Below are positions 4,246-59,983 of a stretch of 64,000 nt of DNA, in pieces. Position 1 is the stretch's first letter; the number at the start of each line of letters is the position of its first letter. The translations under genes and the position numbers were made by a program. The notes under the pieces were generated by a model that worked only from the letters and a program-made list of their open reading frames with translations, was not told where the DNA came from and made no database searches. The stretch comes from Bacteriovoracaceae bacterium. GTDB lineage: Bacteria > Bdellovibrionota > Bacteriovoracia > Bacteriovoracales > Bacteriovoracaceae. The stretch covers positions 1-64,000 of the forward strand of contig JABIHA010000020.1 in the NCBI GenBank assembly GCA_018649885.1, in the 5' to 3' direction.

Positions 4246-4371
4246 GTCTACCTCACACTTAAAGACTACGCCTAAGCATATCCCTGTTTTATGAGCTTTC
4301 TCAAGGTTTTCAATGTTTTTAAAGGAGTTGAATGATCTCTAGCGTGGAATACGGTATTTAGGTGCCTGGAA

Positions 4372-4419
4372 TCAGCATGATAAGGCCCATACCAGTAAAA
4401 TTATTTTAAACATTTTCAT
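4372..4419 (-). CDS. Mini-ORF resembling a lipoprotein signal peptide that ends at the Cys
   Basis: In the 428-base gap 4246-4673 one minus-strand mini-frame stands out: MKMFKIILLVWALSC then TGA. GGGGGAG lies directly upstream and best fits the second ATG (4413). The peptide is a complete lipoprotein-like signal (basic start, hydrophobic core, ALSC) with no mature protein. It may be a truncated lipoprotein gene, a leader peptide for the amidohydrolase gene 127 bases downstream, or chance. The rest of the gap shows no convincing gene. Confidence 0.3.
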   Translation of the reverse strand: MKMFKIILLVWALSC

Positions 4420-4673
4420 CTCCCCCATTAAATAACTTCACAAATTATGCTTCAGTTCCCGGTACTTATAAAACCTCACCTAGAGGTTAAAAAAATAGTG
4501 CATCGCATTTCGTAATTATCGCAATTAAACGATGTGGTGCATCCTATGAATTTTTTATTCGCGCACTGCACGTAGATTGACGGTGTAGCTCTAAACTCAT
4601 AACAGCTGTCTATATATTTAAAGATAGATGATTTCCCCAAATCCCCTATCACAACAACTTTCAGGAGTTTCAT

Positions 4674-5348
4674 ATGAAACATATTTTATTTTTATCATTA
4701 CTTTTTAGCTCAATTGCAAGCGCTTCTTACCTCGAAAACTGTGTCTATAAAACAACTCTTGTTAGCGAAGGAAGAGTGGGCTCCCTCGACAAATCACTTA
4801 GAGAAGGTGAAATGCCAAGGGCCTACATCTTTAAGATTGATAAGGTTGTAGAGAACAAAGGGAGCCACGCAGGTTGCGATCACTTACTTGGAAACCTAAA
4901 GGCCTTAACCAGTACAAAAAATACAGGCGCTAAAGTCGGCGACAGTGTTTATCTCGATCATTTTTATGTCAACAACTACTCACCAAATGGTGTTGTTGAA
5001 TCAGACCGTTGGAAGGTTGTGGCCGCACCAGTTGTTCAAAATGAATGCTTCAAGGTTTCTGACAAAGACGGAAAACCTGCCTATGCAGTATTAGGGTTAA
5101 AGCCTTATAACGTAGACCAAGTATGTGTCACAGACCAATGGAAAAATGAAGAATTCGCAGCAGTAGAAATTCAATTTAAACTTGCTGGAAAAGTTCTAGT
5201 TGAATTCAAAGGATCATCAGAAAAATACTCTGACTCAAATGTGCGCTTTACACTTAATGACGGTGGTTTTGAGCCCACACAGTTTGAAGCTTCAATCAAA
5301 GACGGAAAGCTTGTAGATTTTAAGCTTCCCTCAAGTTTTGGATTATAA
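4674..5348 (+). CDS. Exported protein of unknown function
   Basis: A 224-residue protein with a clear signal peptide (MKHILFLSLLFSSIASA) and probable cleavage before SYLENC. The mature part has four Cys, suggesting periplasmic disulfides, and looks beta-rich. No family was recognised. ATG is preceded by CAGGAG at good spacing, and a strong intrinsic terminator follows 22 bases after the stop, so it is a monocistronic unit. Confidence 0.8.
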   Translation: MKHILFLSLLFSSIASASYLENCVYKTTLVSEGRVGSLDKSLREGEMPRAYIFKIDKVVENKGSHAGCDHLLGNLKALTSTKNTGAKVGDSVYLDHFYVNNYSPNGVVESDRWKVVAAPVVQNECFKVSDKDGKPAYAVLGLKPYNVDQVCVTDQWKNEEFAAVEIQFKLAGKVLVEFKGSSEKYSDSNVRFTLNDGGFEPTQFEASIKDGKLVDFKLPSSFGL

Positions 5349-5369
5349 TTTACAGTGATAAATCACAAA

Positions 5370-5398
5370 AGGTCCCAATGAATTTGGGGCCTTTTTTT
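5370..5398 (+). terminator. Intrinsic terminator
   Basis: Stem AGGTCCC / GGGGCCT (one G-T wobble) with a nine-base loop, followed by seven T. It closes the exported-protein gene ending at 5348. Confidence 0.85.
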
Positions 5399-5546
5399 CG
5401 CCAGATTTGTCTAAAATCAAACAAATATCTTTAAAAACCAAGTAAAGAACATAAAATTTATTTAATAAATTTCAAATTTCCTCAAATACTCCGAAATGGT
5501 ATTAGTAAAATACCGTTATTTGGCACTATAAATAAAGAGGGTTTGT

Positions 5547-6362
5547 ATAAAGTCAATATTACTTAAGCTTGTTATTGCCTTGAATATTATGGCTGCAGGA
5601 TTTTCAGTCCATGCTGGAATGGATTTTTGTAGAATCATCTTAGAGACTGGGATAATGGGAGGGCATCTAGGCTACGGCAATGTTCTCAACTATGATTTGT
5701 ACAGACCCTATGATTCAATTTTATTTCTTTCAGATGGCATTGATGACACCTTTGGCTTTCGAAATGAAGTGAAAAATATAGAAGGTGCCCTATCCCTAGG
5801 AGAAAGAGTCTCTGGACATTTTCCTGGAAAAAAAGTTGTTCAGACTGATTTCAATATTGTGGGCAGCACAACCAAAGGCAATCTGACCCAAATGCACTTA
5901 GACAATACTGCCGACTTTCCCTTTAATGATGAAACATTCGATTTAATCGTCATGAGAAAGGGCATGTGTCTATGCTGTAGACGACAGCCTTGCGGAGGAT
6001 TCAGCTCAAAGCATGCAGCCAGTAAACAATTTTTCACAAGGGTTATTGAATCCCTCAACTTAAAAAACCCCAAGGCGATGGCCATATTGCACGGACAAGA
6101 AAAAGCAAACCCTAAGGTTGTCGAGAGATGGAAAAGAGTAGCAGAGGAACTAGAACAGGCCTATGATGTGGATATCTCATTTGGCTATGCACCTCCTGGA
6201 TATGGTTTCAAAGCAGGAGACGATGGTATTAACGCAGTTCCTGCTCTTATAGATCAATCAACAATGCCACTTGAAAGTGCTGAGCCCATGCTGGGAGAAT
6301 TTAATTCTATTATCATTCGCCCCAGAGTTTCAGAGGCGATTCCACTAACAGAAAGACTTTAA
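5547..6362 (+). CDS. Exported Cys-rich protein, methyltransferase-like core, probable ATA start
   Basis: The first conventional start (TTG 5580, ATG 5589) lies inside a hydrophobic stretch. Upstream, in frame and open, the sequence from ATA at 5547 reads IKSILLKLVIALNIM, then AAGFSVHA: a textbook signal peptide. GAGGG at 5537-5541 is five bases before ATA, whereas no good Shine-Dalgarno precedes 5580. So the likely start is a non-standard ATA, or a lost ATG. The body has a methyltransferase-like patch (FPFNDETFDLIV) and a CLCCRRQPCGG cluster. Function is unknown; an exported methyltransferase would be odd, so the fold call is weak. It converges with the next gene, eight bases away. Confidence 0.65.
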   Translation: MKSILLKLVIALNIMAAGFSVHAGMDFCRIILETGIMGGHLGYGNVLNYDLYRPYDSILFLSDGIDDTFGFRNEVKNIEGALSLGERVSGHFPGKKVVQTDFNIVGSTTKGNLTQMHLDNTADFPFNDETFDLIVMRKGMCLCCRRQPCGGFSSKHAASKQFFTRVIESLNLKNPKAMAILHGQEKANPKVVERWKRVAEELEQAYDVDISFGYAPPGYGFKAGDDGINAVPALIDQSTMPLESAEPMLGEFNSIIIRPRVSEAIPLTERL

Positions 6363-6370
6363 ATCTCACA

Positions 6371-7705
6371 CTAATTACAAAATAATTCAAATGGCTCTTT
6401 ATAAGATCTAGGATTTACAAGCTCTATATATTTTCTTGCCTCTTTACTAGTAAGTTCAGGAACTCTTTTGACAAGCCTATTTAAAAAATCACCAAAGTTA
6501 AGCTTTGCTCTTTTAACATTTTCACCACCTTGTGACAGCGGCAAAAAAGTGGAGAGAATATCCTTTAAGGTTATGAATGTTCTCTCGCAAAGATACTCAC
6601 TCTGGGAAAGATCTCTCTTAATAATTTTTTTCTTATCGAGATCTTCTCCATACACATCACCTGGTCCAAAGTAGGTATAGTTTTGGATATTTTCTAAGGT
6701 CATACTCAAAAGAAGGCTGGTCCATCCAGAGTCCTTACCCTCACTAAACTTTAATTTCTTACCGGCCAAGAGAGTTGTCAGAAAAGACCTATTATATGGC
6801 TTACTCGCTTTTTTCTCAAAAACTTCTTGGAGAATTCTTTGAGCTGCAAACTCAGCAAACCCCTCGTGAAAGGCAATATGAGCGGGGGCAAAGGGTGTAT
6901 GAGTGGTTAAATTTTGAAGCCAATAACCCACAAGCCCACTTGGGCCTTTAATATGCTGATAGGCCCAAATATGCATTAATTCATGAACTAGTGTACGAAG
7001 AGTAAAGTCATCAGTTCTTGAGTTTTTAATAATGTAAATAGTTTGATTGAGCTCATTAGCATAACTACGCTCAAGTCTCTTTCCATCAGGGCCATAGTCA
7101 CTGATCAAACTATTGTGTGGATATTTTACAGCAACCCTCTTTTGAAACCCAAATTCTTCTCCAAAGCTTTTTAAATAATCAAAGACCTTACTATAAATAG
7201 TCCAAAGCTCAGCGTGTTTTCTAAAATCACCTACACCAAGAGAATAATTTGCATTTTTTTTGAAAATCATTTTTCCCAGGTCGAGTTCACTCGTTGTAAC
7301 TTTTTCTGAGCTGCGATAAATTGTATTGGCCTTAACTTTAAAAAATGGTGAAAATCCTGCATGCTTGTGTCTTAGTTCTAAAAGATCATTTTGAAATTTC
7401 AACTTGACCTTTATAAAGCGACCGGTTTCACATTTTTTACCTTTTAAAGTAAGTGGGATTGAAAAGCTTCCATCAGACTTCGTTTTCCCCTCCCCCCAGG
7501 GAACATAAATCCCTTTGTGAAGTTGTGACTTGAAAATTTTAACTTTTGCTCCAATTATAGGCAGAGTTTGTTTCTTAAGCTCTTTAAGTATAGTTTTCAC
7601 CTGAATTGTTCCACTAACTTGATACTTACATTCACCTGCCATAACAATAAAGCTAAGTGAGTAGAGAAAAAATAGAAAAAGGATTTTTAAGATATGGTTT
7701 TTCAT
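6371..7705 (-). CDS. Exported putative zinc metallopeptidase
   Basis: Counting from ATG 7705 (GGGGG six bases upstream), the protein has 444 residues and a signal peptide ending near SFIVMAG. Residues 25-110 look like a transthyretin/carboxypeptidase-regulatory-like beta domain (GEGKTKSDGSFSIPL). The catalytic part carries HELMH at about 241-245 and a downstream HEGFAEF near 280, where a Glu could be the third zinc ligand as in gluzincins. The substrate is unknown; a role in degrading prey or matrix protein would fit a predator but is inference. Confidence 0.7.
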   Translation of the reverse strand: MKNHILKILFLFFLYSLSFIVMAGECKYQVSGTIQVKTILKELKKQTLPIIGAKVKIFKSQLHKGIYVPWGEGKTKSDGSFSIPLTLKGKKCETGRFIKVKLKFQNDLLELRHKHAGFSPFFKVKANTIYRSSEKVTTSELDLGKMIFKKNANYSLGVGDFRKHAELWTIYSKVFDYLKSFGEEFGFQKRVAVKYPHNSLISDYGPDGKRLERSYANELNQTIYIIKNSRTDDFTLRTLVHELMHIWAYQHIKGPSGLVGYWLQNLTTHTPFAPAHIAFHEGFAEFAAQRILQEVFEKKASKPYNRSFLTTLLAGKKLKFSEGKDSGWTSLLLSMTLENIQNYTYFGPGDVYGEDLDKKKIIKRDLSQSEYLCERTFITLKDILSTFLPLSQGGENVKRAKLNFGDFLNRLVKRVPELTSKEARKYIELVNPRSYKEPFELFCN

Positions 7706-8009
7706 AGCGTGCCCCCAGCACAACTATCATACCAATATTGCACATTTAAATTGAAAACTAATATGAGATATAGTGTTTATTACACATTTCCAATGGCCCT
7801 GAGTGTCTAGACTTTAGACGGGTATGAAATAAATGCCTTAAATCTAAGCTTTATCAAATTCATAACTAAGCAATTTAGAAGTCGGAATACATAATATGAG
7901 AAGAGGGATTTGAAAAAATATTGAATGAGTATTGAGAATATATTGGAAAAACGTAAGAAATACCCTTGCAGGTGAGAAGGCCTATGGTTCCAGCTGTAGA
8001 GAGATGTTA

Positions 8010-8063
8010 TTCACGGCGCTGGAAAATATAGTGGCGCCTATAGAGTTTGGAGAGCGCCGTGAA
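8010..8063. repeat. Perfect 11-bp inverted repeat with 32-base spacer
   Basis: TTCACGGCGCT at 8010-8020 is exactly complemented by AGCGCCGTGAA at 8053-8063. The arms are GC-rich in an AT-rich gap and no T-run follows on either strand, so it is not a normal terminator. The 455-base gap 7706-8160 otherwise shows no convincing gene; a 66-codon frame at 7932-8132 has no protein-like features. Confidence 0.6.
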
Positions 8064-8160
8064 CAAAATATTTCCAAAACTAAATCCACGATACTTAGAT
8101 CCTCACACACATTATTTTTAAATATTCTATAACCTAAATAATCTTTATTATCATAAACAT

Positions 8161-9345
8161 CTAAATAAGCCCCATCCGGATCAGAATATTATCTTCACAC
8201 CACACACCGCCTGCGATGGCAGCGGTGATGGCACTTCTGGTACCATCTCTTTTTTCTAAACTTTTCACTCTATTTAAAAAATCTCCGCCGTAAAACATTT
8301 GGAGTAAATTATTAAATCTGGTAATGCCTTTTTTGATCTCTGCGTTGTAAGAGACAACATTGTCTTCTGAGTTGAGCCAGCATCCTTCATTTTCAAGAGA
8401 ATAGACAATATTTTGGGAGAGAAGTTTAGCAGACATTAAAGACACGTGAACTCCTGAAGAAAAAACAGGATCGAGAAAACTCATCGAGTCCCCCACACTC
8501 CCCCACCTTTCGCCTACAAAACTATCACACTTATAAGAATAGTTTGAGACCACTTTAAATTCACTGGATCTGTTAGCGCTAGACATCAGCTCACTGAGCC
8601 AGCTATTTTTATCAATAATAGCTGTAAAAGCACCTTCAGGATCAGAAATCTCAGGCAAATTTGTCCTGCTTGAAACAATTCCCACTGAGGTTGAACCATC
8701 TTCAAAAGGAATAAGCCAGGCCCAGGAATTGTCATGAAGGATTCCGATGGTGATATCTCCTCTATCTCTTAAATTGTCTCTACTAACCCCCTCAAAGTGG
8801 GCATAGATGGAAAAGTTGTTGTAGTACAATTCATTTTTTTCTTTGCTTTCAAACTTTCTGAGAATTTGAGATTTCCCCCCAGTTGCATCGACGATAAATT
8901 TTGAGCGGTACTGTCCCTTATCTGTTGTGACCATCACACCTTCAAGATTAATCTCAAGGTCACAAAACTCTTCTGGCTGATGCACTTCCACGCCGGCCTT
9001 GATAGCATGGTTTAAAAAATCATGATCAAATTGCGCTCTTTGAACTTCATAAGCGTGTGGGTACGCAGCCTTTCCCCCATCAGAGAAATCAAAGTAGATG
9101 GAATCACCTTGCCTAGAATCAATAAAGAGCGCCCCTTTTTTCTTCAAATAATTCCCAGAGGCCAAAACTTTATCAAAACCTAAGTCCTCAAAAACTTCCA
9201 TGGAAAAGGGAAGTAGTGACTCGCCTATTTGAAACCTTGGAAAGTTTGATTTTTCGAGGAGTAAAACGCGTTTGCCTTGTTTATGAACGTATTGTGCTGT
9301 TGCAGCTCCTGCCGGACCACCACCTACGACAATTAAATCATACAT
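8161..9345 (-). CDS. FAD-dependent halogenase-like oxidoreductase
   Basis: About 394 residues. It begins with a Rossmann FAD motif (VVGGGPAGAATAQ), then FPRFQIGESLLP, and carries WAWLIP near residue 210, matching the WxWxIP motif of flavin-dependent halogenases. KKKGALF near 70 lies where phenol-type halogenases have a conserved basic patch. Non-halogenating relatives exist, so chlorination or bromination of the aryl head group is inference. AAGGAG favours the second ATG (9345) over 9351. It is the last gene of the minus block of the polyene cluster, following the FabI-like gene. Confidence 0.75.
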   Translation of the reverse strand: MYDLIVVGGGPAGAATAQYVHKQGKRVLLLEKSNFPRFQIGESLLPFSMEVFEDLGFDKVLASGNYLKKKGALFIDSRQGDSIYFDFSDGGKAAYPHAYEVQRAQFDHDFLNHAIKAGVEVHQPEEFCDLEINLEGVMVTTDKGQYRSKFIVDATGGKSQILRKFESKEKNELYYNNFSIYAHFEGVSRDNLRDRGDITIGILHDNSWAWLIPFEDGSTSVGIVSSRTNLPEISDPEGAFTAIIDKNSWLSELMSSANRSSEFKVVSNYSYKCDSFVGERWGSVGDSMSFLDPVFSSGVHVSLMSAKLLSQNIVYSLENEGCWLNSEDNVVSYNAEIKKGITRFNNLLQMFYGGDFLNRVKSLEKRDGTRSAITAAIAGGVWCEDNILIRMGLI

Positions 9346-9356
9346 CTTCATCTCCT

Positions 9357-10130
9357 TCAGGAAAGCTTACTTTGTTTAATAATTGATATGCCTGAATCCA
9401 CAAAAATATTTTGCCCAGTAACTGAGCGAGAGTGCTCTGAGCACAAGTACAACGCCGCCGAGGCAACATCGTCTTGATCAATATTTCTTCTCAGTGGAGA
9501 ATAGTCTTCCACTTGTTGTAAAAAATCAGAAAAACTGGGAATACCAAAGGCGGCAAGAGTTTTTACAGGCCCTGCCGATATTGTGTTAACTCTAATACCC
9601 TCTTGCCCCAAATCATCGGCCAAATAGCGGGCTGAAGCCTGCAAAGCTGCTTTGGCAACTCCCATGACCCCATAGCCTTGTAGAACTTTATCGGCTCCCA
9701 TATAAGTCATCCCAATGATTGAACCATCACGATTTATCATAGACCTTAATTTTTGTGACAAAGCAATGAGGCTATAGCTTGAAATATCTAAGCACTTTCT
9801 AAACCCCTCTCGAGAGGTTTGATGAAAGCGACAGGTAAGCTCACGGGCATCTGCAAAGGCAATAGAATGAACAAGAAAATCAAATGTACCAAACTCATCT
9901 TTCACAGTTTGTGACAACTGATCCAATTCACTATCTGAGGTGATATCCGTTTTAACTACAAACTTAGCTTCCATTTCTTTAGCAAGAGGAACTACCCTTT
10001 TTGTATTAGAGTCATGAAAGTAGCTGATTCCTACACTCGCCCCATTTTTGGTAAGAGATTGTGCAATCGCCGTGGCGATTGAGTTTTTATTGGCAAGCCC
10101 TGTAATTAACGCCTTCTTCCCTCTAAGCAT
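9357..10130 (-). CDS. FabI-like enoyl-ACP reductase (SDR)
   Basis: From ATG 10130 the protein has 257 residues and is closely FabI-like: LITGLANKNSIA cofactor loop, VHSIAFA, the YxxxxxxK pair at about Y153/K160 in GYGVMGVAK, and ISAGPVKTLAA. ATG overlaps the stop of the deacetylase gene by eight bases (ATGCTTAG), showing translational coupling. FabI reduces enoyl-ACP to acyl-ACP. That step would destroy a conjugated polyene, so this copy may act on a saturated part of the product or be recruited for another reduction. The housekeeping copy could be elsewhere. Confidence 0.85.
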   Translation of the reverse strand: MLRGKKALITGLANKNSIATAIAQSLTKNGASVGISYFHDSNTKRVVPLAKEMEAKFVVKTDITSDSELDQLSQTVKDEFGTFDFLVHSIAFADARELTCRFHQTSREGFRKCLDISSYSLIALSQKLRSMINRDGSIIGMTYMGADKVLQGYGVMGVAKAALQASARYLADDLGQEGIRVNTISAGPVKTLAAFGIPSFSDFLQQVEDYSPLRRNIDQDDVASAALYLCSEHSRSVTGQNIFVDSGISIIKQSKLS

Positions 10131-10839
10131 TTTGAACACTGCCTCTTTGAATATACTCATCACTTAGACGACCAAATTCAAAACCGCGTTCTTTCATGTG
10201 CACAATGAATTTTTCAAGCTCCCCTACGAAATGCTCAGCTCCCCTATGTGAATCGTGCATTAAGATAATGTCACCTGAGCGAATATTTTCAATTTTCTTT
10301 AAACTCCGTTTAAAATCAAAGGCCAGGAGTGTATCGTAAAAACGAATATTCCAGCCAATAAGAGGCACCTTCAATTTTCTTAGAGCAATTTTCAACTCAG
10401 GAGTACGAATTCCTACTGGTGGTCTAAAGCCGATGGGTCCCACATTTAGGTGCTTTCGAATGACCTGCTCTCCGCCACTGATCCATCTCTTTATGGCACC
10501 GACACCTTTAAAATAGTTCAATGTATGATGGTCATAGGAATGGTTTCCTATACCGTGACCATCACCAATCATTTTGGTCGCCACATCTTTTGTGGATTCA
10601 ATATTTTTTCCTACCAAAAAAAATGTGGAGCAAACCTGGTGCTTTTTCAATAATTCTAATACAAGTGGGGTGCAAAACTCATTAGGCCCATCATCAAAAG
10701 TCAAAAAGATCTTATTTTTTGAATTGGGGATTGTTTTGATACAAGGAGCAAAGAAAGTCTCTTTGAATTCATGAAAAAAACTTTTGAGTCTCTTAAAAAT
10801 AGATTCTAGAATAGCACCTTCCTTCGATTTCTCTTTCAT
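10123..10839 (-). CDS. NodB-type polysaccharide deacetylase
   Basis: A 238-residue CE4/NodB domain with all core motifs: LTFDDGP, GNHSYDHHTL (metal His pair), FRPPVG, IGWNIRFYD and DIILMHD. No signal peptide is obvious, though a short basic/hydrophobic start exists. ATG 10839 is chosen; an in-frame TTG at 10863 is possible. It overlaps the chain-length-factor gene upstream and the FabI-like gene downstream, so it belongs to the pigment operon. It may deacetylate an N-acetyl sugar attached by the cluster glycosyltransferase; this is inference. Confidence 0.82.
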   Translation of the reverse strand: MKEKSKEGAILESIFKRLKSFFHEFKETFFAPCIKTIPNSKNKIFLTFDDGPNEFCTPLVLELLKKHQVCSTFFLVGKNIESTKDVATKMIGDGHGIGNHSYDHHTLNYFKGVGAIKRWISGGEQVIRKHLNVGPIGFRPPVGIRTPELKIALRKLKVPLIGWNIRFYDTLLAFDFKRSLKKIENIRSGDIILMHDSHRGAEHFVGELEKFIVHMKERGFEFGRLSDEYIQRGSVQNA

Positions 10840-11527
10840 AGGGAAATGAATTTCCACTATCAACTGTTTTTATAAAATCTAAAAGTGCAGAGCTATCGAT
10901 TCTTGTAGTCATAGAAATCTTATTTTCCTCATTGTATTCAACAGAAAAAACTCCCATCTTTTGTACCTCTAGTCCATTTTGGGTAGCAAACTCTGGAAGA
11001 GCAAAAATGGCCAGACTAACAGTGGGCCTTGAGGGATCACTACCACTAAAATTTGAAAAGCAGCTCTCAAGCTCACGAGGGATACAATCAAAACATATGG
11101 CCATGACGATATTACATCTTCCGGCCGCAATTAAATCAGCTGACGCCTCAAGACACTTCTCTCCACTTAAAATTCCATGGCTAATGGTCATGCCAATGCC
11201 CCCCAGATTAAACTCTGTGGATACAAGACCTAAAACAGAGTTGTGGAGACTATTTTGAAAAATAGTAGGGCTATAAATTCCCTTTTCTTTAAATTTTTTA
11301 AAAAATGAAAGGGTTTGAGACAACTCTCCATGAGTTGTTCCTGCCACTACAGCTAACTCGTCTTCAATATGGTCAATTTTATCTTTTAAGGAGTTGATCG
11401 CACTCGAAACAATAGTTTTTGCTGCCACCATTAAAGGAGTCGCGCGCCTATTTTCGCGGGAATTTAAAATATGTTGATCAATACTTTCAACTTCAATACT
11501 AGCAGTGTGAACCAAGGATAAATTCAT
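10793..11527 (-). CDS. Chain-length-factor-like ketosynthase partner (PF13723 type, ApeC-like)
   Basis: A 244-residue protein resembling the short beta-ketoacyl-synthase-like subunits of aryl polyene clusters: THGELSQTLSFF, then SPTIFQNSLHNSVLGL, typical of PF13723. No catalytic Cys is visible at the nucleophile position (TISHGILSGEK). In Xenorhabdus such a protein (ApeC) forms a heterodimer with the active KS ApeO. Its ATG overlaps the stop of the KS gene upstream by four bases (ATGA), fitting a KS/CLF pair made in equal amounts. Confidence 0.75.
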   Translation of the reverse strand: MNLSLVHTASIEVESIDQHILNSRENRRATPLMVAAKTIVSSAINSLKDKIDHIEDELAVVAGTTHGELSQTLSFFKKFKEKGIYSPTIFQNSLHNSVLGLVSTEFNLGGIGMTISHGILSGEKCLEASADLIAAGRCNIVMAICFDCIPRELESCFSNFSGSDPSRPTVSLAIFALPEFATQNGLEVQKMGVFSVEYNEENKISMTTRIDSSALLDFIKTVDSGNSFPYEREIEGRCYSRIYF

Positions 11528-49644: not shown

Positions 49645-50967
49645 ATGAAAATAAAAAAGAATAAATTCATTTTATTTACAATACTTTTCTTATTCTCAAC
49701 CTCACTATTTTGTGCTGAAGACTTTGAGACTATGTTCACGAAATCTGTTAATCCTGACAGTGAGCCACAATCTAGACTGCAAGCTTTAACCTCAACACTG
49801 GTATTTGTTCAACGCGCTCCAAAGGCATTAGATCTGACAAAGGTGATGAGGCTTTTTTACCAACTAGACTTTGAGGGTGAAAACCTTGAAAATATAATAC
49901 TTATTTCTAAAATTCTCTCAGCGACAAATAACTTCGATTTATTAGGTTCTTTTCTCGAATACCTAACAAGGGGATTAAATGAAAATGCCTTTGTTGGTAT
50001 TATTGAAGCTTTGGTTACCTTTGATATCGCTGAGCACTACACACCTACTTATGTTGATATAATAAAAAATGATTTCAGGCCCGTAATTGAAAAACACTTG
50101 TCCAATTCAAAATTAGAGATTAAACAGGCCGCTGCCATGGCCCTATCTATTTATGGGGATGAAGCAAGTGCCAGAAAATTGATCTCTCTACTTTCAATAG
50201 AAAACGATCAAATGAGAGGGCAAATTGTGGCCTCTGTTATTGATATTGGATCAACGGGGGCCTTGTCTGAGTGTATTGAAGAAAACAATCCCGCGACTAT
50301 TAAATGGTGTAGTGAAGCACTCTCTACCATTGAAAAAGATCGAAAAGTTGCCAGACTAAATATCTTAGCAAAAAATACTATCCTAGATTTTTTAGAATCA
50401 TCAATTTATGATCCCAAAAAGGTTGAGGAAAAGGAACTTGTCGATAGGTTAGGATTAGAACATCCCAAAGAAGTCGTTCCAGACCCTGTGATGCTAGAGC
50501 TTGGTAACTTCACCCATGGAAAATTATTAAAAGTGCACCTTTCTAGTGAAGCGGCCATTATTTGTGAAAGGAGTTTCAGCTTCTATCTCTTTATTAAGGA
50601 GGACAAACTTGATGGGGCCAATCTATCAGAAGTACAACGTAAACATGATGAGTGCCTAGAAAGAATAGTTGAAAAAGAAATCACTCGTGCCAAGTATTAC
50701 CTTTCATGGGGAAGACGTGACCGAGACAAAAATAGTCCAAAGGCGGCCATCCCAATTCTTGAGGAGTTATTAACCGATAGAGATCTCGGTGTCTATCATA
50801 TTGATACAGTATTGATGCTTGCCCATGCCCACTTACTATTAAAGGACAAACCAAGTGCATTGGCAGCACTAGCCGAGCTCACTCCTGATAAAATGAGCAA
50901 ACGCCAACTAAGAAAATTCAAAAAGTACAGTAGGGCCGCAAATAAAAAATCAAGGGGGGAAAAATGA
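49645..50967 (+). CDS. Exported HEAT-repeat-like protein
   Basis: From ATG 49645 (GTG 49636 possible), 440 residues with a signal peptide (FILFTILFLFSTSLFCA). Residues 130-240 look like HEAT repeats (EIKQAAAMALSIYGDEASAR), and residues 330-430 like TPR helices. It is probably a periplasmic scaffold. Its stop overlaps the ATG of the Omp85 gene (ATGA), so the two are translationally coupled and may work together. Confidence 0.72.
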   Translation: MKIKKNKFILFTILFLFSTSLFCAEDFETMFTKSVNPDSEPQSRLQALTSTLVFVQRAPKALDLTKVMRLFYQLDFEGENLENIILISKILSATNNFDLLGSFLEYLTRGLNENAFVGIIEALVTFDIAEHYTPTYVDIIKNDFRPVIEKHLSNSKLEIKQAAAMALSIYGDEASARKLISLLSIENDQMRGQIVASVIDIGSTGALSECIEENNPATIKWCSEALSTIEKDRKVARLNILAKNTILDFLESSIYDPKKVEEKELVDRLGLEHPKEVVPDPVMLELGNFTHGKLLKVHLSSEAAIICERSFSFYLFIKEDKLDGANLSEVQRKHDECLERIVEKEITRAKYYLSWGRRDRDKNSPKAAIPILEELLTDRDLGVYHIDTVLMLAHAHLLLKDKPSALAALAELTPDKMSKRQLRKFKKYSRAANKKSRGEK

Positions 50968-53276
50968 GATTCTTTTTCATACTGGTCCTGACTACTCTTT
51001 TACTCTCACTGGGAGCCTCCGCTGCTCAAACAACTGCAGGTGAGCAGTTCTCTATTGAAGGTCGCCTTATCTCAGAGTTGGTTTTCATTGATGATGAAGG
51101 AAAACCCATTGAAGATCCTGCACTTCTCTATATGACATTATCGAAAGTAGGACAGGAGTTAAATGCAGACGCCCTAATTATAGACATGAATACACTTGTG
51201 GGGAAATTTCCTGAATACTCTGAAATTGAAATCAATGTGGTGCCCATTGAAGGTGAAACAAATTTAAAGATTGAATTTCTTTTCCAAAAGAAAAGAGAAA
51301 TTTCACTGGTTCGAATCATTTTAGAGAATACTGAAGAAAACTATGAAGTTCGAGACCTTTTGCAGGCGCAAAAGGGGGTCATATTCAAAAGCACAAAGCT
51401 TGAAGCTGACAAAGAGACAATTCAAAAAGAATATATCAAAAAAGGTTATCCTGATGTTGAAGTTAATGCTGAAGTCCTAGATCAAGAGGGAGCAAGTACT
51501 GACGTGGTCATCAACTATCATGTGAAATCAGTGAGAGGCAGACAAATTGTCAAAGAAATCACGTTCAGTGGTAATACATCTATAAAACCCATGAAATTAA
51601 AAAAAGTACTTAAATCAAAAAAGGGAAATATATTTAAAAAGAGAGCACTTGACGTCAATAATTTTCCAGAAGACCTAGATAGAATTAAAATGGCCTACTC
51701 TGAAATTGGATTCATCGACGCAGTTGTAAGCTATAAGATTGAGGATATTAATAAAGACAAAGGCCATATTCGCTTAGTTTTTAATATAGTAGAAAATGAA
51801 AGATATGAAATTAAAAGCGTTACCATTAGTGGAAATGAAATATTTAAAACTAAGAAGGTTTTAAGTACCCTGGATTTCAAAGAGGGATCATACTTTAACT
51901 TCAAAAATGCCAGAAAAGGTGAACAGGCCTTAAGAGAAATATACGGGGCGCAGGGATATGTCTATGCCAATGTAAACCTTAGATTTAACTCTCAAGCAGG
52001 TGCCGTACTTTTAGAAATAGTTGAAGGCAGGCAATACACCATTAAATCAATTGAGGTATCCGGCAATAGCTATATGAAAGAAAGAACAATTCTCGATGAT
52101 GTGGATATTCTTCCTGGAGAAATTGTCAACATTGTTAAAATTCAAAAAATACTGAGAAAAATGAAATCTCTTGGCTACTATGATGAAGTCTTCTTTGACT
52201 TTGAACCCACTTCAGCAGAAGAGACTACCGGGAAAGTGATCATTAGAGTGGTTGAGGCCAGAGGCCAATACATACAATTTGGAGTGGGCGCCTCCGCAGG
52301 TGGCTTTATGGGCAATGTCAGCTATCAAGATCCAAATGCCTTTGGTTCGGGAAGCTTTTTTAGCATCTTGGCCAGCCAAGAAACTGAAATTACCAGACTC
52401 GGTTTAATTTTTAGGGATCCCCATTTATTTGGTTCAAGATTCGCCCTTGACTTTGAAGCTAGTTATAGCCATTTCTTTGATATTACAGAGAAAGTTTTTG
52501 ATCTCGGTGAATACACTCTCACTGGTTTTAGAACTCGTTTGATGATTACAAGAAAAATAAAAGAAAATCTTGAAATTGGATTGGGCACTAGAGTCCAATT
52601 CCTTAACGTCGAAGCTGTTTCTGAAGAACTAGCAAGTGAGATTCACGACGCTGAAGGAAGAGCGACTGTAGTGGGAATGATTAGTAGCATTGCCTATAAG
52701 ACAGAAGAGTTTGATAATAATGGTGAGAAAATCCAAGATTTTACGGCAAGCCTTTCTCTTTTACCTAGTTACTCTGATGATGGTGTCTATATTAAGGCCG
52801 TGGGACACGTTCTTGGGACACTTGACTTATATAAAGATAAAAAAGGTCGCCACCATACTCTTAGTGGAAGAATTACTATTGGTTATGCCAGTAATAACAC
52901 TCCATTTTTTGAAAAATTCTATGCTGGTGGCATGGGAACCATTCGAGGCCATAAAGAAAACTCAGTGACACCTTCAGGCTCTGTTGCCGGCGGAAATTTT
53001 CTTGCAAGCGCCAACCTCACCTATTCATTTCCTCTTGTTGAAGACATTGTAAGAGGGGTTGTGTTTATCGAAGCGGCCAATGTAAGCAGTGATATTACTG
53101 ACTTTTCAAATTTCAAAGTTGTCGCCGGAGCTGGAGTAAGGTTTAACTTAAAAAAGACTTTTCTGCGAACCACTGTTGAAGCAGGAGTCGCCCTACCACT
53201 ACTTAAAGCAGAAGGTGACCAACTCAAACCATTTTATTTTATTCTCGGGGACTATGATCCCTCATACGACCTATAG
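50964..53276 (+). CDS. Omp85 (BamA/TamA-like) outer-membrane protein
   Basis: A 770-residue protein: signal peptide, about five POTRA domains (residues 25-420, with repeated motifs such as KEITFSGNTSIKPMKLKKVL and KSVTISGNEIFKTKKVL), then a C-terminal barrel with GGMGTIRGHKEN as the family's RGF-type lid motif (here RGH). BamA-like proteins insert outer-membrane proteins. Linkage to a HEAT-like and a 589-residue exported protein, not to skp/lpx genes, suggests a specialised paralogue rather than the housekeeping BamA. Confidence 0.85.
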   Translation: MRFFFILVLTTLLLSLGASAAQTTAGEQFSIEGRLISELVFIDDEGKPIEDPALLYMTLSKVGQELNADALIIDMNTLVGKFPEYSEIEINVVPIEGETNLKIEFLFQKKREISLVRIILENTEENYEVRDLLQAQKGVIFKSTKLEADKETIQKEYIKKGYPDVEVNAEVLDQEGASTDVVINYHVKSVRGRQIVKEITFSGNTSIKPMKLKKVLKSKKGNIFKKRALDVNNFPEDLDRIKMAYSEIGFIDAVVSYKIEDINKDKGHIRLVFNIVENERYEIKSVTISGNEIFKTKKVLSTLDFKEGSYFNFKNARKGEQALREIYGAQGYVYANVNLRFNSQAGAVLLEIVEGRQYTIKSIEVSGNSYMKERTILDDVDILPGEIVNIVKIQKILRKMKSLGYYDEVFFDFEPTSAEETTGKVIIRVVEARGQYIQFGVGASAGGFMGNVSYQDPNAFGSGSFFSILASQETEITRLGLIFRDPHLFGSRFALDFEASYSHFFDITEKVFDLGEYTLTGFRTRLMITRKIKENLEIGLGTRVQFLNVEAVSEELASEIHDAEGRATVVGMISSIAYKTEEFDNNGEKIQDFTASLSLLPSYSDDGVYIKAVGHVLGTLDLYKDKKGRHHTLSGRITIGYASNNTPFFEKFYAGGMGTIRGHKENSVTPSGSVAGGNFLASANLTYSFPLVEDIVRGVVFIEAANVSSDITDFSNFKVVAGAGVRFNLKKTFLRTTVEAGVALPLLKAEGDQLKPFYFILGDYDPSYDL

Positions 53277-53296: not shown

Positions 53297-55066
53297 ATGA
53301 ATAATTTTTTGAGGTCCATTGTACTAATTACTATTATGCTCACTAACTCTTTTGCAGTTAGAGCGGCCAGTGATAGTATCGACTTCGAAAAAGAGAGAGC
53401 TGCTCTTGCAAAGCTTGACAAACATGCCTTTAAAAAATGGGGCAAGCTTGAAGCACTCCAAGCTGATCCAGTTTGGCTAGAAGAGCAGGCCGATAGCGAA
53501 ATATACGGCACCGTTTTTCATAAGGGGTGGTTTAACCCCAAAGTACAAAGACAAATTGTTCCAGATAAAGAAGATGGGCTGCTAGTAATAGATACCATAA
53601 TCTTAGGCCCTAAAATTATCTCACAAGTGGTCACTCTTTCGGCCAACTTAGCACTTTCTTATTTCTTCCCCTACGTTCAAGGTGGTCCAATACACAGCAA
53701 AACATTTTCTAATATCCGGCACGTCAAGACTTTTGAAGAGGGACTCAAGCTCCCCCACTTTCTCCTTCAGGAAACTCCATTAACCCACGCGGAATTTTCC
53801 AGTGAGCTAGACGCGGGTGAAATTCTCACAACCAAAACGACAAATGGGTTTTTCGCTAGATTTAGTCTAGATATTCTCGATTTAATTGGAGTCTCTAGCT
53901 TGATCCCCGTGCAACTGGGACCCAAGGCCAAACTTCACTTCCAGAAAACGCTGAAAGTCAGTATTGCTAAAAAAACTGAGGATCTTGCAGTCCTTTTAAT
54001 TGAAAACACCAAGGAAAAAGGTGTTGGCATCGGCATTGGATTTGGATTTACCTTTGACGATATTATCGATATTCCAGTATCAATTGGTATTAATGGTGCC
54101 TCTGGTTATACTCCATTCAAAGCAAATTTAAAAACTTCAACACAAAATATTGACTCTATTGCCTACGAAGTTGATCTCTCTGATCCCGAGGGCCTGGCCG
54201 CTTATCACAGTTTTTTGCAAAGTGATTTCACTGTTCTCCAAGATTTGGCCGAACTTGAAGACTCTCCTGTAAAAATGGAAGTCAGAAAAGTTGGAAAGGC
54301 GACAATCACCGAAAGAAATTTTGGGCTCGACTTACTGGCATGGAGAATTGGAAGAAGACATATCACAATGAGTGCTCTTTATGAGACGACCCTTCCAGGC
54401 GGACGCTTCTATAAGTATCAAGAAGCGATGAGTAAAAAAGTAAAAGACAGCGGTGGAATTGGAGGAAAAGAACAGACAAGTCTCAAGTTTTCAGTCATTG
54501 TCCCACTTAGCTCAAGCGAAGGACTTGATGAAAGTAAATCATTCACTCTAAATTCTGAATACACCTACCATGACTACCGCGCTAAAGGTAAGGAGCTAGA
54601 TAAAATATCAGATACTATAAGTAACTTCGGGCTCCCACTAGGCATTCCGGTCAATTTTTCACCTAAAGAAAATTATGATGAGGTTCTAGTCTACGCCAAT
54701 GTTCAATTTTCAGCAGTGGCCATGACAAAGATTATTAGCTCTGATTCACAAGACGTATGGATCGCAGTGGCCAGTGCCACGGGTCTTGCAGACCCTCTCA
54801 ACTGGGAGGATAAGAGCGCCAGAACATTATACAGTGTTACCAACAAGAAAAATCCAAAGAACCTTAGACGGTTATCTATAGCTCGAAAGGTTGTAGAAAA
54901 ACTCCATCTACTTAGATCACCCGATCTTCCACTAGCATTGAAGGCCAAAACTCTTCTAAGACAATTACAGAAGAAAAGGATTGGTCACCTCCTCCACAAG
55001 ACAATGGTCAATATTGTCGGCTGGGATATTTTAATGGGCCAAGGCCATATTAAAGGAAACCTTTAA
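53297..55066 (+). CDS. Exported protein of unknown function, probable Omp85 partner or cargo
   Basis: A 589-residue protein with a signal peptide (SIVLITIMLTNSFAVRA). The middle part is beta-rich with alternating strands (GVGIGIGFGFTFDDIIDIPV), followed by IAYEVDLSDPEGLAAYHSFL and a C-terminal helical/basic region. A weak similarity in order and motifs to the C-terminal half of the 1092-residue protein at 56705 can be seen. It starts 20 bases after the Omp85 gene, so the three genes form an operon. No family recognised. Confidence 0.72.
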   Translation: MNNFLRSIVLITIMLTNSFAVRAASDSIDFEKERAALAKLDKHAFKKWGKLEALQADPVWLEEQADSEIYGTVFHKGWFNPKVQRQIVPDKEDGLLVIDTIILGPKIISQVVTLSANLALSYFFPYVQGGPIHSKTFSNIRHVKTFEEGLKLPHFLLQETPLTHAEFSSELDAGEILTTKTTNGFFARFSLDILDLIGVSSLIPVQLGPKAKLHFQKTLKVSIAKKTEDLAVLLIENTKEKGVGIGIGFGFTFDDIIDIPVSIGINGASGYTPFKANLKTSTQNIDSIAYEVDLSDPEGLAAYHSFLQSDFTVLQDLAELEDSPVKMEVRKVGKATITERNFGLDLLAWRIGRRHITMSALYETTLPGGRFYKYQEAMSKKVKDSGGIGGKEQTSLKFSVIVPLSSSEGLDESKSFTLNSEYTYHDYRAKGKELDKISDTISNFGLPLGIPVNFSPKENYDEVLVYANVQFSAVAMTKIISSDSQDVWIAVASATGLADPLNWEDKSARTLYSVTNKKNPKNLRRLSIARKVVEKLHLLRSPDLPLALKAKTLLRQLQKKRIGHLLHKTMVNIVGWDILMGQGHIKGNL

Positions 55067-55269: not shown

Positions 55270-56307
55270 ATGAAAATCGCAAAGAAAGTATTAGCAGTTA
55301 GTACAATTTTGGCCCTTACAACTCCACTGTTCGCACAAGAAGCAGCTGAAGGAGTTAGGATCACTGACATTATGGTACAAACACAAAGTAGGTACCGCTA
55401 CCAAGAAAGTAACGGCACTAACAAGCTAGAGCAAAACGTTGTTCTTAAAGGTACAATCGATTTTAACGGACTATTTACATTAACTGGCGTTGTAAGAACC
55501 GGTGGAACTTATAATGGTGGATACAATGGTGTTATTATGCCAGACGCAGCTGAGGTATTTGATCCTTCAGGCGAGATGCATATCACACAACTTTATATCT
55601 CAAAAACTTTTGGTGAGAAAGTAACAGCTCAAGCAGGTGCCTTGGCCGTAGACAATGGAATTAGCAGTGCCGCTACTGGCCTTTCTGGCATTGGCTGGAT
55701 TGACGGTGCAAGAGTTGCTGTTAAAACACCTTACGGACGTATTGCTCTAGTTGGTGGATCTCTTACTGATCCGGGTAACTCTGATGCTTACTCAAGAGAA
55801 AGAAAACTCAACTATGTTGAACTTCACATGACAACTGAGACTTTTGCTAAAGTTTTAAAAGCACAAGGTGGAGTTGAATATCATGAGGACGACCTTTTTG
55901 CTAAGGCAGGACTTCAAGCTAACCTTCAAGAGGCAACGGGCCTTGCTATCTCAGCTTTTGCTGAAGTAGTTGTTAGAACAACTGGCGATGCTGGCGTTCT
56001 AGTAAGTGCCGGCGGTGCTGCTGATCTTCTCGCTATCTTTAGTGACAACAAATATACAGGTGTAAAAATCAGTGCCAAGTATATTTATGCATCAGACGCT
56101 GTTAAGGCTTCTGACAGATACTCAGGAGCTTATACAAGCGGACTTAACGCTTGTAGCGGTAATCACTGTGGAGTATTTGGACTAGCTGTCACTATCCCAA
56201 AAACTGACGGTAGAGTTACTGCTTTTGGAAACATAAGAGTTGATAGCGCTGGAATGGAATTTAATAGATACGAAGCTGGCGTTAAAGTAAAAATTGGAAG
56301 AAAATAA
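55270..56307 (+). CDS. Putative outer-membrane beta-barrel protein
   Basis: A 345-residue protein with a signal peptide (VLAVSTILALTTPLFA) and alternating amphipathic strands throughout (GLFTLTGVVRTGGTY and similar), ending VKVKIGRK. Only two Cys (NACSGNHC). GGAGG lies at good spacing and a very strong terminator follows, so it is probably highly expressed on its own. A porin role is inferred; the final residue is Lys, not the usual aromatic, which is unusual for a BAM substrate. Confidence 0.7.
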   Translation: MKIAKKVLAVSTILALTTPLFAQEAAEGVRITDIMVQTQSRYRYQESNGTNKLEQNVVLKGTIDFNGLFTLTGVVRTGGTYNGGYNGVIMPDAAEVFDPSGEMHITQLYISKTFGEKVTAQAGALAVDNGISSAATGLSGIGWIDGARVAVKTPYGRIALVGGSLTDPGNSDAYSRERKLNYVELHMTTETFAKVLKAQGGVEYHEDDLFAKAGLQANLQEATGLAISAFAEVVVRTTGDAGVLVSAGGAADLLAIFSDNKYTGVKISAKYIYASDAVKASDRYSGAYTSGLNACSGNHCGVFGLAVTIPKTDGRVTAFGNIRVDSAGMEFNRYEAGVKVKIGRK

Positions 56308-56704: not shown

Positions 56705-59700
56705 ATGTTACACAAACATAAAATCTTAATGATTATTCTCTCACTTACCCTTGTCTTTAATGCTTTCTCTAGAATTCACGAAGATGAGCTAGGCCTTGAG
56801 CATTCAGTTTCTCTTCGAGAAGCTGTGGTTAAAGATCTTCTGGCACCTACTTTGGAAGTAGATCAAGAAAAAGTTGATATTTTTATGGAGAAAATATCAA
56901 GAAGAGTTAGCCAACTTTTTGAAATAGAAAAGACAACTCTCATGTCCATGGGTGAAAAAGAAAAGAAAGCAAAAAAAGAATCTGCTAAGCAAGACTTGAT
57001 CATAGCTGGTAGATACATCATAAAGCTTTCAAAGCGTTTAAAAACCCTTGAAAATCCAACTGAAATTCAGTCTCTTGCAAAAAAGATTCTAAAAATTGAA
57101 TCATCCTTTGTTAAAGAAGGTCGCTACAACGCGATCACAGAAATACTTGGTGTCTACCGCGTTCTTTTATTTGAAAATCATGATTTGCCTCTGAATTCAA
57201 AAGGTAGAGAGCTTCCTTCAAACTTAGTTAATGAAAAGACAAAAAAATATTATTCTAGAGATGAGTTACGTGAGCTTGAAGCAGAGGGAGTAGATCTCTC
57301 AACAATTGATCCTCCAAATAACTCATTTTGGGCCAAGCCGGAAAATGTAGCTCAAGTGGACATTGTTGCTGACACAAAAGGTATTCCCACTAAATTCTTT
57401 TACAGCAGTGTCAAAAAATCTGATCACCACCCAAAATTGAAAGTCTATAGTGCTGATGGTGAAGAAAAAACTAAATGGAAATTTATGATTGGAAAACAAG
57501 TTAATACAGAATTTGTTGCCATGAGAATTATGGAATTGATGGGTTTCAAAATTGACCGCATGTACTACATCAAAACTCCAACAGTATATTTCAAAGATAA
57601 AGAAGAAAGAGATGCCATGCTTTTAGACTGGCTAGGCTTTTATAGTGCAAAAAAAGAATTACCACATATGGTATTCAAAAGCGAAGGAGAGCTTGAAACT
57701 CCAGTGCTAAACCACAAAGGGAAAAAATACAATTACTATGTGACATTCTATGAGGCAGCTCTAGAGGACCGCCCTAAAGATGAAGAAAGAATTGGTTCAT
57801 TTAAGCTCAATGAATTAGGTGCCTGGGAAAGAAGAGAAGTACGTGCCCAATTACTGGCCCAAGGCTATATTGCCAGTGGTGACATTAAAGAAGCGCACAA
57901 TAATAAGATAAAATTAGTTTCTACTGGAAAAGGTGAGTACGATGTTAATGAGCTAATTCATGACCTTGGAAAGTCACTTGGTAATCCTCTCGTAGGGATT
58001 CAAGTCAATGATTATCCTTTTGAGTGGATTAAGATTAAGGGGATTGGTGGAAATAAAAGAGTTCATTTTGACTACCGCAGATATCATATTATCAATAAAT
58101 TTAAAACTGACAAAAACCCATTCATGGTTGGTCACTACTCAGATACCAAATGGTCAGCAAGACTGCTTGCTCAAATCACCAAGAAACAGCTCCATGACAT
58201 TATTACTGGTTCTGGTTTTCCAAAGCCACTTGCTGAGCTCTATTATCAAAAGCTATTAACAAGAAGAGATAATGTGGTCAGAATTTTTAACCTTGAAGGT
58301 ACTAAAACTTCTGACAATAGAGTTGTTCAACTATTTAATACAAAGAAAATTAAACACCTCAAAAAAGAGCTCGACTTTGACTACAAAGGTGAGCAAGTAA
58401 TAAAAAATGGTGTACTGCTCAAAAACTTTAAAGATCATGGCTTCCCAATGCAATATCTTGGAGTTCCAGGAAAAATTGGACAGGCACTAGTAATGGGTCT
58501 TCAAGCCTTGGTAACAACTATCTCTGATACCGAATTATCTCAGAAGTTGATTCCGATTGACCTTCCCAATAGAGTTAAAGAAAGTACTGATGAATATAAA
58601 ACAGAATACTTTTTTGGACTCATAACATTTAAGTTTCACCGTAGCATCGAAACTACAAAGGCAAGATTAATAAGTGAGTATACCTATAAACTGACAGATA
58701 CTTTTCAAGTGAGACTTAATCTCGGAGGAAAGTACAAAACTCTTACAATTCCTTTTCAAGTAGGTGTTAAAGGAAATGCATTTGTTGGTCGTGAATACCA
58801 AAGAATTCATTATGTTGATTCTAGAAAAAAAGCGATGACAGCTGGCTGGGGAAAACTTCTGGCCCTCCCATTTAAGTGGAGAAAGCAGCTTGCTGAATCA
58901 CGAGTTCATGAAGGTATTCAAATTGCAGATATCATTGGCATTGAAGAAGGCGTTGAAGGAGCAGTAGGAATACCTACAATAGCTCAAGCTGGAGTAGAGA
59001 TTGAGGCTGAACAAAATGTTCTTAAACAAACAACAATGATAAAAGATGCAAATGGAAATGTTCTTGTTGCAGACGAGAAAGGTCCTGGGTACGAACTAGG
59101 AGCAAGTTTATTCACAAGATTTTTTGGAATGGACTTTCTACAGTTTAATCACCTAAGATATGGCATTTTCGGAGGCCACTCCACAGTAAAAAATTACGTT
59201 GTTGACCTTGCAAACGCAGATCAACACATGGAATTACTTCGAATTGTTCGCGGTGAAAGACTCTTCAAGGGATCAGATTTGCTACCTCTCGAAAGTGAAG
59301 AAAAAAGAGACTACAGAGGATCTGATGCAGAGGCCTCGGTCATCTTAGCTTCTCGCTCGACCCATAAGGAAGGCACTAAAAAAATAGAAACTTTTGCTGA
59401 TGGAACTCAACTGAGAACTCTTCACTTTGAAACTGAAAGAGAAAGATCTTCTATGATTAGAACTATTTCTGCCAGAGCAGAGGCCAAGATTAAATACATT
59501 GGCGTTAGTGATGAAATTGATAAGACAAGTATCACTCTACATGTGGACATTGAAGATCCAGCAACAAAGAATGAGGAGTTCAGTAGGTATATTAAATTAA
59601 TCAATACACTGGTTGCTGATGAAGAATTTATTATCTTCACACCTGAGCTATTTAACCGCGATCGTTATGAAGAAATTGTTGCCAGCGTTGATATCAAGTT

Positions 59701-59983
59701 TAAAAAAGATGTTGTGGCCTGTCTAATGGAAAAATTAGGCTGCCCCGAAGGCATTGAGAAAACAAGAAAGCTAAAGACAGCTCTAGCAAAATTTCATAAG
59801 AAAAAGCGTGACCGCTCTAGGCTTAGAAGTGTTTCCAGCTGGATAGCACGTATGAGTATGAAAAGGCCTGAAGTGATCGGTGAGATGATTAAGTATTTTG
59901 GTGAGAGAAGATTCACAACCAAAGTCTATATTTTTGGAGAATTCTTACCTCTTGAAAGCAAAAATATTTACAGAAAAAGATAA
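56705..59983 (+). CDS. Large exported protein with kinase-like motifs
   Basis: A 1092-residue protein with a signal peptide and no recognised family. Residues 40-150 are helical. Residues 210-440 carry motifs in protein-kinase-superfamily order: KWKFMIGKQVNTEF (K257/K259, E269), a hinge-like YYVTFYEAALEDRP, SGDIKEAHNNKIKL (D393, N399/N400) and LIHDLGKSLG (D420). This recalls HipA/PI3K/CotH-type kinases. Residues 640-900 are beta-rich and faintly like the protein at 53297. GGAGG precedes the ATG. The kinase idea is inference. Confidence 0.7.
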   Translation: MLHKHKILMIILSLTLVFNAFSRIHEDELGLEHSVSLREAVVKDLLAPTLEVDQEKVDIFMEKISRRVSQLFEIEKTTLMSMGEKEKKAKKESAKQDLIIAGRYIIKLSKRLKTLENPTEIQSLAKKILKIESSFVKEGRYNAITEILGVYRVLLFENHDLPLNSKGRELPSNLVNEKTKKYYSRDELRELEAEGVDLSTIDPPNNSFWAKPENVAQVDIVADTKGIPTKFFYSSVKKSDHHPKLKVYSADGEEKTKWKFMIGKQVNTEFVAMRIMELMGFKIDRMYYIKTPTVYFKDKEERDAMLLDWLGFYSAKKELPHMVFKSEGELETPVLNHKGKKYNYYVTFYEAALEDRPKDEERIGSFKLNELGAWERREVRAQLLAQGYIASGDIKEAHNNKIKLVSTGKGEYDVNELIHDLGKSLGNPLVGIQVNDYPFEWIKIKGIGGNKRVHFDYRRYHIINKFKTDKNPFMVGHYSDTKWSARLLAQITKKQLHDIITGSGFPKPLAELYYQKLLTRRDNVVRIFNLEGTKTSDNRVVQLFNTKKIKHLKKELDFDYKGEQVIKNGVLLKNFKDHGFPMQYLGVPGKIGQALVMGLQALVTTISDTELSQKLIPIDLPNRVKESTDEYKTEYFFGLITFKFHRSIETTKARLISEYTYKLTDTFQVRLNLGGKYKTLTIPFQVGVKGNAFVGREYQRIHYVDSRKKAMTAGWGKLLALPFKWRKQLAESRVHEGIQIADIIGIEEGVEGAVGIPTIAQAGVEIEAEQNVLKQTTMIKDANGNVLVADEKGPGYELGASLFTRFFGMDFLQFNHLRYGIFGGHSTVKNYVVDLANADQHMELLRIVRGERLFKGSDLLPLESEEKRDYRGSDAEASVILASRSTHKEGTKKIETFADGTQLRTLHFETERERSSMIRTISARAEAKIKYIGVSDEIDKTSITLHVDIEDPATKNEEFSRYIKLINTLVADEEFIIFTPELFNRDRYEEIVASVDIKFKKDVVACLMEKLGCPEGIEKTRKLKTALAKFHKKKRDRSRLRSVSSWIARMSMKRPEVIGEMIKYFGERRFTTKVYIFGEFLPLESKNIYRKR

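Follow-up and report, generated by a model that had tools for sequence, protein, structure and literature searches.

The window, a 64,000-nucleotide stretch of a Bacteriovoracaceae bacterium genome (contig JABIHA010000020.1), contains a plus-strand open reading frame at 56705–59983 that encodes an exported kinase-like protein of 1092 residues. The protein begins with a putative signal peptide (residues 1–22, MLHKHKILMIILSLTLVFNAFS; 56705–56770, +), recognised by eye from its basic start, hydrophobic core and A-x-S motif; by the same judgement, most family members with complete starts carry a similar one. Three parts follow: an N-terminal helical segment (residues 35–156; 56807–57172, +) whose helices are predicted with mostly high confidence, a kinase-like domain (residues ~172–530; 57218–58294, +) delimited by a family alignment and by the order of strands and helices in an AlphaFold model, and a beta-rich C-terminal domain (residues ~630–1000; 58592–59704, +) with long strands in the same model. 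A promoter and terminator scan gave results no better than shuffles.

Upstream lie an Omp85/BamA-like gene (50964–53276, +; POTRA and Omp85 in Pfam) and its partner, which begins 21 bases past it and encodes a 589-residue exported beta-rich protein (53297–55066, +). This protein is related to the C-terminal beta domain but stands alone: in a profile comparison, residues 560–1092 aligned with it and its relatives over 443 columns at E 3.6e-15, and a reversed control was not significant. Its close homologues adjoin an Omp85/BamA-like gene in seven other genomes (L112–L118), and the pair looks like an undescribed two-gene outer-membrane module. Because the beta domain is common to an Omp85-partner protein, it points to an outer-membrane role for the C-terminal part, whether as anchor, barrel or Omp85-assisted cargo. 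A general linkage of the kinase-like genes to Omp85 was tested and rejected, as the loci of the other family members contain no Omp85 gene. The stretch 55270–56307, between the genes for the beta-domain protein and the kinase-like protein, encodes a 345-residue exported protein that is porin-like by eye; it has no family match and was not seen beside family genes at other loci.

The kinase-like domain defines a large family. A whole-genome search revealed further genes for the same domain (residues ~160–580), and a profile search counts 15 distinct family genes in the source genome, the window gene included. The profile also matched 48 of 59 genomes of the same taxonomic family and, across the Bdellovibrio phylum, 172 of the 291 genomes sampled, including Halobacteriovorax, Halobacteriovoraceae, an Oligoflexia bacterium and other MAGs, with members of 510–1409 residues. 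These names would place the window on the Bacteriovoracaceae/Halobacteriovoraceae side of Bdellovibrionota. A first scan of genome contigs with the window protein alone found no match, and a 23-row alignment held no pattern conserved enough for scanning, while a 10-row alignment did give matches. No model in Pfam (whole library) or NCBIfam matches the window protein, and sequence searches of the PDB returned chance matches only and no relative. The Bdellovibrio phylum thus has a large new family, undescribed until now, whose members are secreted and share a kinase-like core.

A sequence-only reading had singled out 57446–57990 (residues 248–429) as a possible exported kinase, naming a lysine strand, a helix with E269, a SGDIKEAHNN loop and an HDLG motif within residues 250–425. 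All of these motifs are present, and conservation picks out the same residues. The series begins with K244, the lysine of a P-K motif (57434–57436, +), which shows no variation in the 23-row alignment. It is followed by the Lys strand and the start of the Glu helix (57479–57511, +), where family alignment and conservation mark K259 (57479–57481), a Lys at position 261 (Met in the window copy), a Glu at position 265 (here Gln) and E269 (57509–57511). Next come the catalytic-loop motif D393-I-K395-E-A-H-N399-N400 (57881–57904, +), immediately preceded by S391-G to read S391-G-D393-I-K395-E-A-H-N399-N400, and a metal-binding-type motif D420-L-G422 after H419 (57962–57970, +). A second-lobe motif, D480-x-x-W483 (58142–58153, +), is invariant in the family alignments.

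Across the 23 rows, the invariant columns in window numbering are K244, G280, D393, D420, G422, D480 and W483. For a broader measure we ranked the 331 columns of a 54-row alignment that excludes a second subfamily (Neff 43 at 60% identity). D420 and G422 rank 2 and 5, D393 and N399 rank 8 and 12, and K259 and E269 rank 16 and 22; their mean rank is ~11, and among 20,000 random draws matched for residue type no draw equalled it. The catalytic Asp, the Asn and the DxG motif (D393, N399, D420 and G422) are conserved in that order across the 54 members. K259 and E269 co-vary, with both present in 43 rows and both absent in 10. Lineages without them (L050, L051, L082–L086) mostly show further decay, for example N399 to Gln, and in four of these lineages G422 is Ser.

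Two groups of relatives depart from this pattern. The second subfamily (L019–L032 and L056; ~1000–1200 residues) is widespread, as a rule with a single gene in each genome of the family; it is without the DxG motif, has Arg in place of K244, and is probably non-catalytic. Halobacteriovorax has a head-to-head pair of family genes (3834–7298, −, and 7440–10916, + in L062; the same in L063 and L066), of which one copy carries Asn for the catalytic Asp (TNLKKGENNK). The pair lies beside DUF4956/MFP genes and has the look of an active enzyme partnered with a pseudo-enzyme.

Structure prediction recovers a kinase-like order of elements. A full-length AlphaFold model built from 14 sequences reached a mean pLDDT of 70.3 and a pTM of 0.59; from the single sequence the model was useless (pLDDT 33). 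In the 14-sequence model, strands at 230–239, 242–249 and 257–262 precede a helix at 265–278, with more strands up to residue 365. A helix at 377–389 then leads into the D393 loop, strands at 401–406 and 412–418, D420-L-G and helices at 478–489, 493–502 and 509–527. Confidence is low in the catalytic loop (392–397) and in the stretch after DLG (423–436). The predicted order is that of a kinase-like domain followed by a long-stranded beta domain.

Foldseek searches with the full-length model, against the PDB and a viral library, gave no match below E 0.001. The leading PDB matches, none significant, are autotransporter and other outer-membrane barrels, lipid-transfer beta sheets, and the kinases MK2, CaMKII, ERK2 and Vps34; viral Ser/Thr kinases and outer-membrane proteins recur amid unrelated proteins, likewise without significance, in the top 50 from the viral library. 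The barrel and lipid-transfer matches would be attributable to the C-terminal part. Autotransporters (Hbp, EspP and BrkA barrels) share the layout, in which a long-stranded beta domain comes after an N-terminal one, but the best PDB match, an autotransporter barrel, reaches only E 0.053, and in the window protein helices come after the strands. Since lipid-transfer beta sheets score like barrels, an open sheet is also possible.

The likeness to HipA, PI3K, CotH and Fam20C kinases proposed by the sequence-only reading is not borne out by any Pfam model of the four, and survives in one weak but in-register alignment. CotH (PF08757) and HipA (PF07804) models do not match the window protein; the former does detect true CotH genes in the source genome, and the latter finds a different gene there. 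PI3/PI4 kinase and Fam20C models gave no match in the whole-library scan. When profiles were compared with profiles, HipA aligned with the family over 171 columns (score 25.6, E 0.023), and K244, the Lys strand, the Glu helix and D393 all face their HipA counterparts. K244 stands opposite the Lys of the HipA S-x-A-G-A-Q-x-K motif, position 261 opposite the HipA catalytic Lys and E269 opposite the HipA Glu. The score is near noise: 60 column shuffles gave at most 18.3, one reversed APH profile gave 23.2, and a larger, more diverse family profile scored 19.4 over 51 columns. The similarity therefore supports a kinase relationship, short of proof. HipA and canonical kinases (Pkinase) likewise fail to detect each other with profiles of the same depth (15.0), so a low score does not count against a kinase. 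HipA also differs from the window protein in being cytosolic rather than exported, and the DxG motif falls outside the aligned region.

Direct homology to CotH, canonical kinases or APH found no support in these profile comparisons. Canonical protein kinases (PF00069) do share with most members the D-x-K-x-x-N motif and its spacing to DxG, with one extra residue in the window's clade, and kinases are among the leading structural matches; however, no profile match rises beyond chance, and no glycine-rich loop was recognised in the family.

The window copy itself departs from the family at two of its most conserved positions. Position 261 is Lys or Arg and position 265 is Glu in every other of the 54 rows; the window protein has Met (atg, 57485–57487) and Gln (caa, 57497–57499). 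The two charges are both present in 53 rows and both absent in four, namely the window protein and three members of the second subfamily. Such joint change is as expected for a lost salt bridge. A paralogue on contig 98 of the source genome (G000:C98, L002), 52% identical to the window protein, has all four residues 259, 261, 265 and 269. Catalytic activity of the window copy is doubtful on this evidence, and the copy may be inactive; it could act through K259 and E269, or it could be degenerate.

The window copy could accordingly be a pseudokinase, its kinase fold giving an envelope protein a module for binding or scaffolding, with the chemistry left to intact paralogues. The K261M and E265Q changes are confined to this copy among catalytic-type members, and decay is common in the family, as in the D393N copies of Halobacteriovorax, the degenerate L082–L086 and the near-universal second subfamily without DxG. 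Against this, the window copy retains K244, K259, E269, D393, K395, N399, D420 and G422, and we lean away from a pseudokinase while giving it a real chance.

Gene neighbourhoods in relatives connect the family to CotH. In two Halobacteriovoraceae-type loci, the family gene ends a row that comprises DUF4956, an adaptor of HlyD/RND type with a fused phytase-like propeller, an OEP/TolC-like protein and the polyphosphate polymerase VTC (3041–7512 in L061, 2763–7385 in L064). L130 and L133 have the same gene set, in this or a rearranged order, as does L131, where a protein of no identified kind stands in for OEP. Part of the DUF4956–VTC set is seen in L062, L063 and L066 as far as the analysed stretch reaches, and in L129 and L132, VTC, with or without DUF4956, adjoins or is near the family gene. 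The DUF4956–adaptor–OEP–VTC operon is possibly a polyphosphate or phosphate-related export system.

By hand tally, family gene and VTC lie within ~10 kb of each other in 8 of the 14 genomes that hold both VTC and a long or clear family member; a rough estimate of the chance expectation is about 0.05 per genome. In these eight, DUF4956 is usually nearby as well, and often an MFP/OEP exporter. VTC-linked members fall in four branches of the family tree, one of them sister to the clade of the window gene. Neither the window gene nor its nearest relatives lie beside VTC, and a comparison of gene order across that clade revealed no partner in common.

Streptococci, clostridia and bifidobacteria have a published gene set of CotH, a polyphosphate polymerase and DUF4956 (PMC7112168), and the source genome also has a true CotH–VTC pair. 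Because the relatives' genes keep the CotH partners VTC (PF09359) and DUF4956 (PF16316), the family occupies the CotH place in those relatives, and its kinase-like motifs are a further likeness. Unlike the CotH set, the family has a long beta domain and extra MFP/OEP genes; it has no PF08757 match, direct profile comparison with CotH is unconvincing, and the window gene itself is away from VTC. A CotH-like place in several relatives suggests, short of proof, that these bacteria phosphorylate molecules outside their cytoplasm.

Taken with the conserved motifs, these neighbourhoods make it fairly probable, in our judgement, that the proteins are a new and diverse family of CotH-like exported kinases in Bdellovibrionota. 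For the exported kinase that the sequence-only reading had proposed, motif conservation, predicted element order, kinases among the leading though not significant structural matches, the weak in-register HipA alignment and the relatives' CotH-like context all speak in favour, and M261/Q265 speak against activity in the window copy. In such a family, a Sec signal peptide would carry the protein out of the cytoplasm, and the beta-rich C-terminal domain of long members would probably hold it at the outer membrane or surface. Within a two-lobed kinase-like core (residues ~172–530), intact members would most likely bind a nucleotide–metal complex through Lys 259/261 and the DxG at 420–422. As in CotH, phosphate may then be transferred, with Asp393 as catalytic base, to a protein or polymer that is secreted or lies at the surface. 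A weak point is that ATP is not expected beyond the cytoplasm; ATP or another donor might reach the exported enzyme, or action might precede or accompany export.

The same fold might instead act on a small molecule or polymer, for example in phosphorylation of an exported polysaccharide or in polyphosphate handling. The relatives' linkage to VTC, to the adaptor with its phytase-like propeller and to an OEP-type protein would fit this, as would the linkage of CotH sets to polysaccharide genes (PMC7112168). CotH itself, however, phosphorylates proteins (PMC7821199), and the window gene lies outside any such cluster; we rate a substrate of this kind as rather unlikely. That the domain is no kinase at all, but an unrelated exported domain using its conserved Lys, Asp and Asn for another enzyme activity or for metal binding, is improbable: no sequence model recognises it and its structural matches are not significant, but ordered motifs, predicted topology, HipA register and CotH-type neighbourhood agree on a kinase, and HipA and Pkinase too miss each other at equal profile depth.

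Returning to CotH-like exported kinases, a fuller version of that reading strikes us as doubtful. Bdellovibrionota would have their own extracytoplasmic kinases in the CotH place of an envelope system that comprises VTC, DUF4956 and a dedicated MFP/OEP exporter, phosphorylating surface or secreted molecules, perhaps with a donor supplied by the system instead of cytosolic ATP, and a set of ~15 genes could modify many envelope targets. Apart from CotH, there are few documented cases of phosphorylation outside the cytoplasm of bacteria. A family that has no database model, is amplified in one lineage, extends across a phylum with predatory bacteria among its members and takes the CotH place beside polyphosphate polymerase in relatives makes it possible to test concretely whether secreted kinases exist in Gram-negative bacteria, and which donor they use. 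Prey molecules as substrates are a speculative possibility for predators; this analysis found no link of the family to prey, and a literature search for kinases in predatory bacteria turned up no relevant paper.

Two VTC loci have distinct compositions. Contig 143 of the source genome (L128, 4576–9320) carries VTC and DUF4956 without CotH or a family gene, and upstream of them a 746-residue lipoprotein-like protein that matches no Pfam model. In L132, a protein with a weak match to CYTH, the fold class to which VTC belongs, is encoded at 9415–10293; it adjoins a short family gene (510 residues) and is near VTC and DUF4956.
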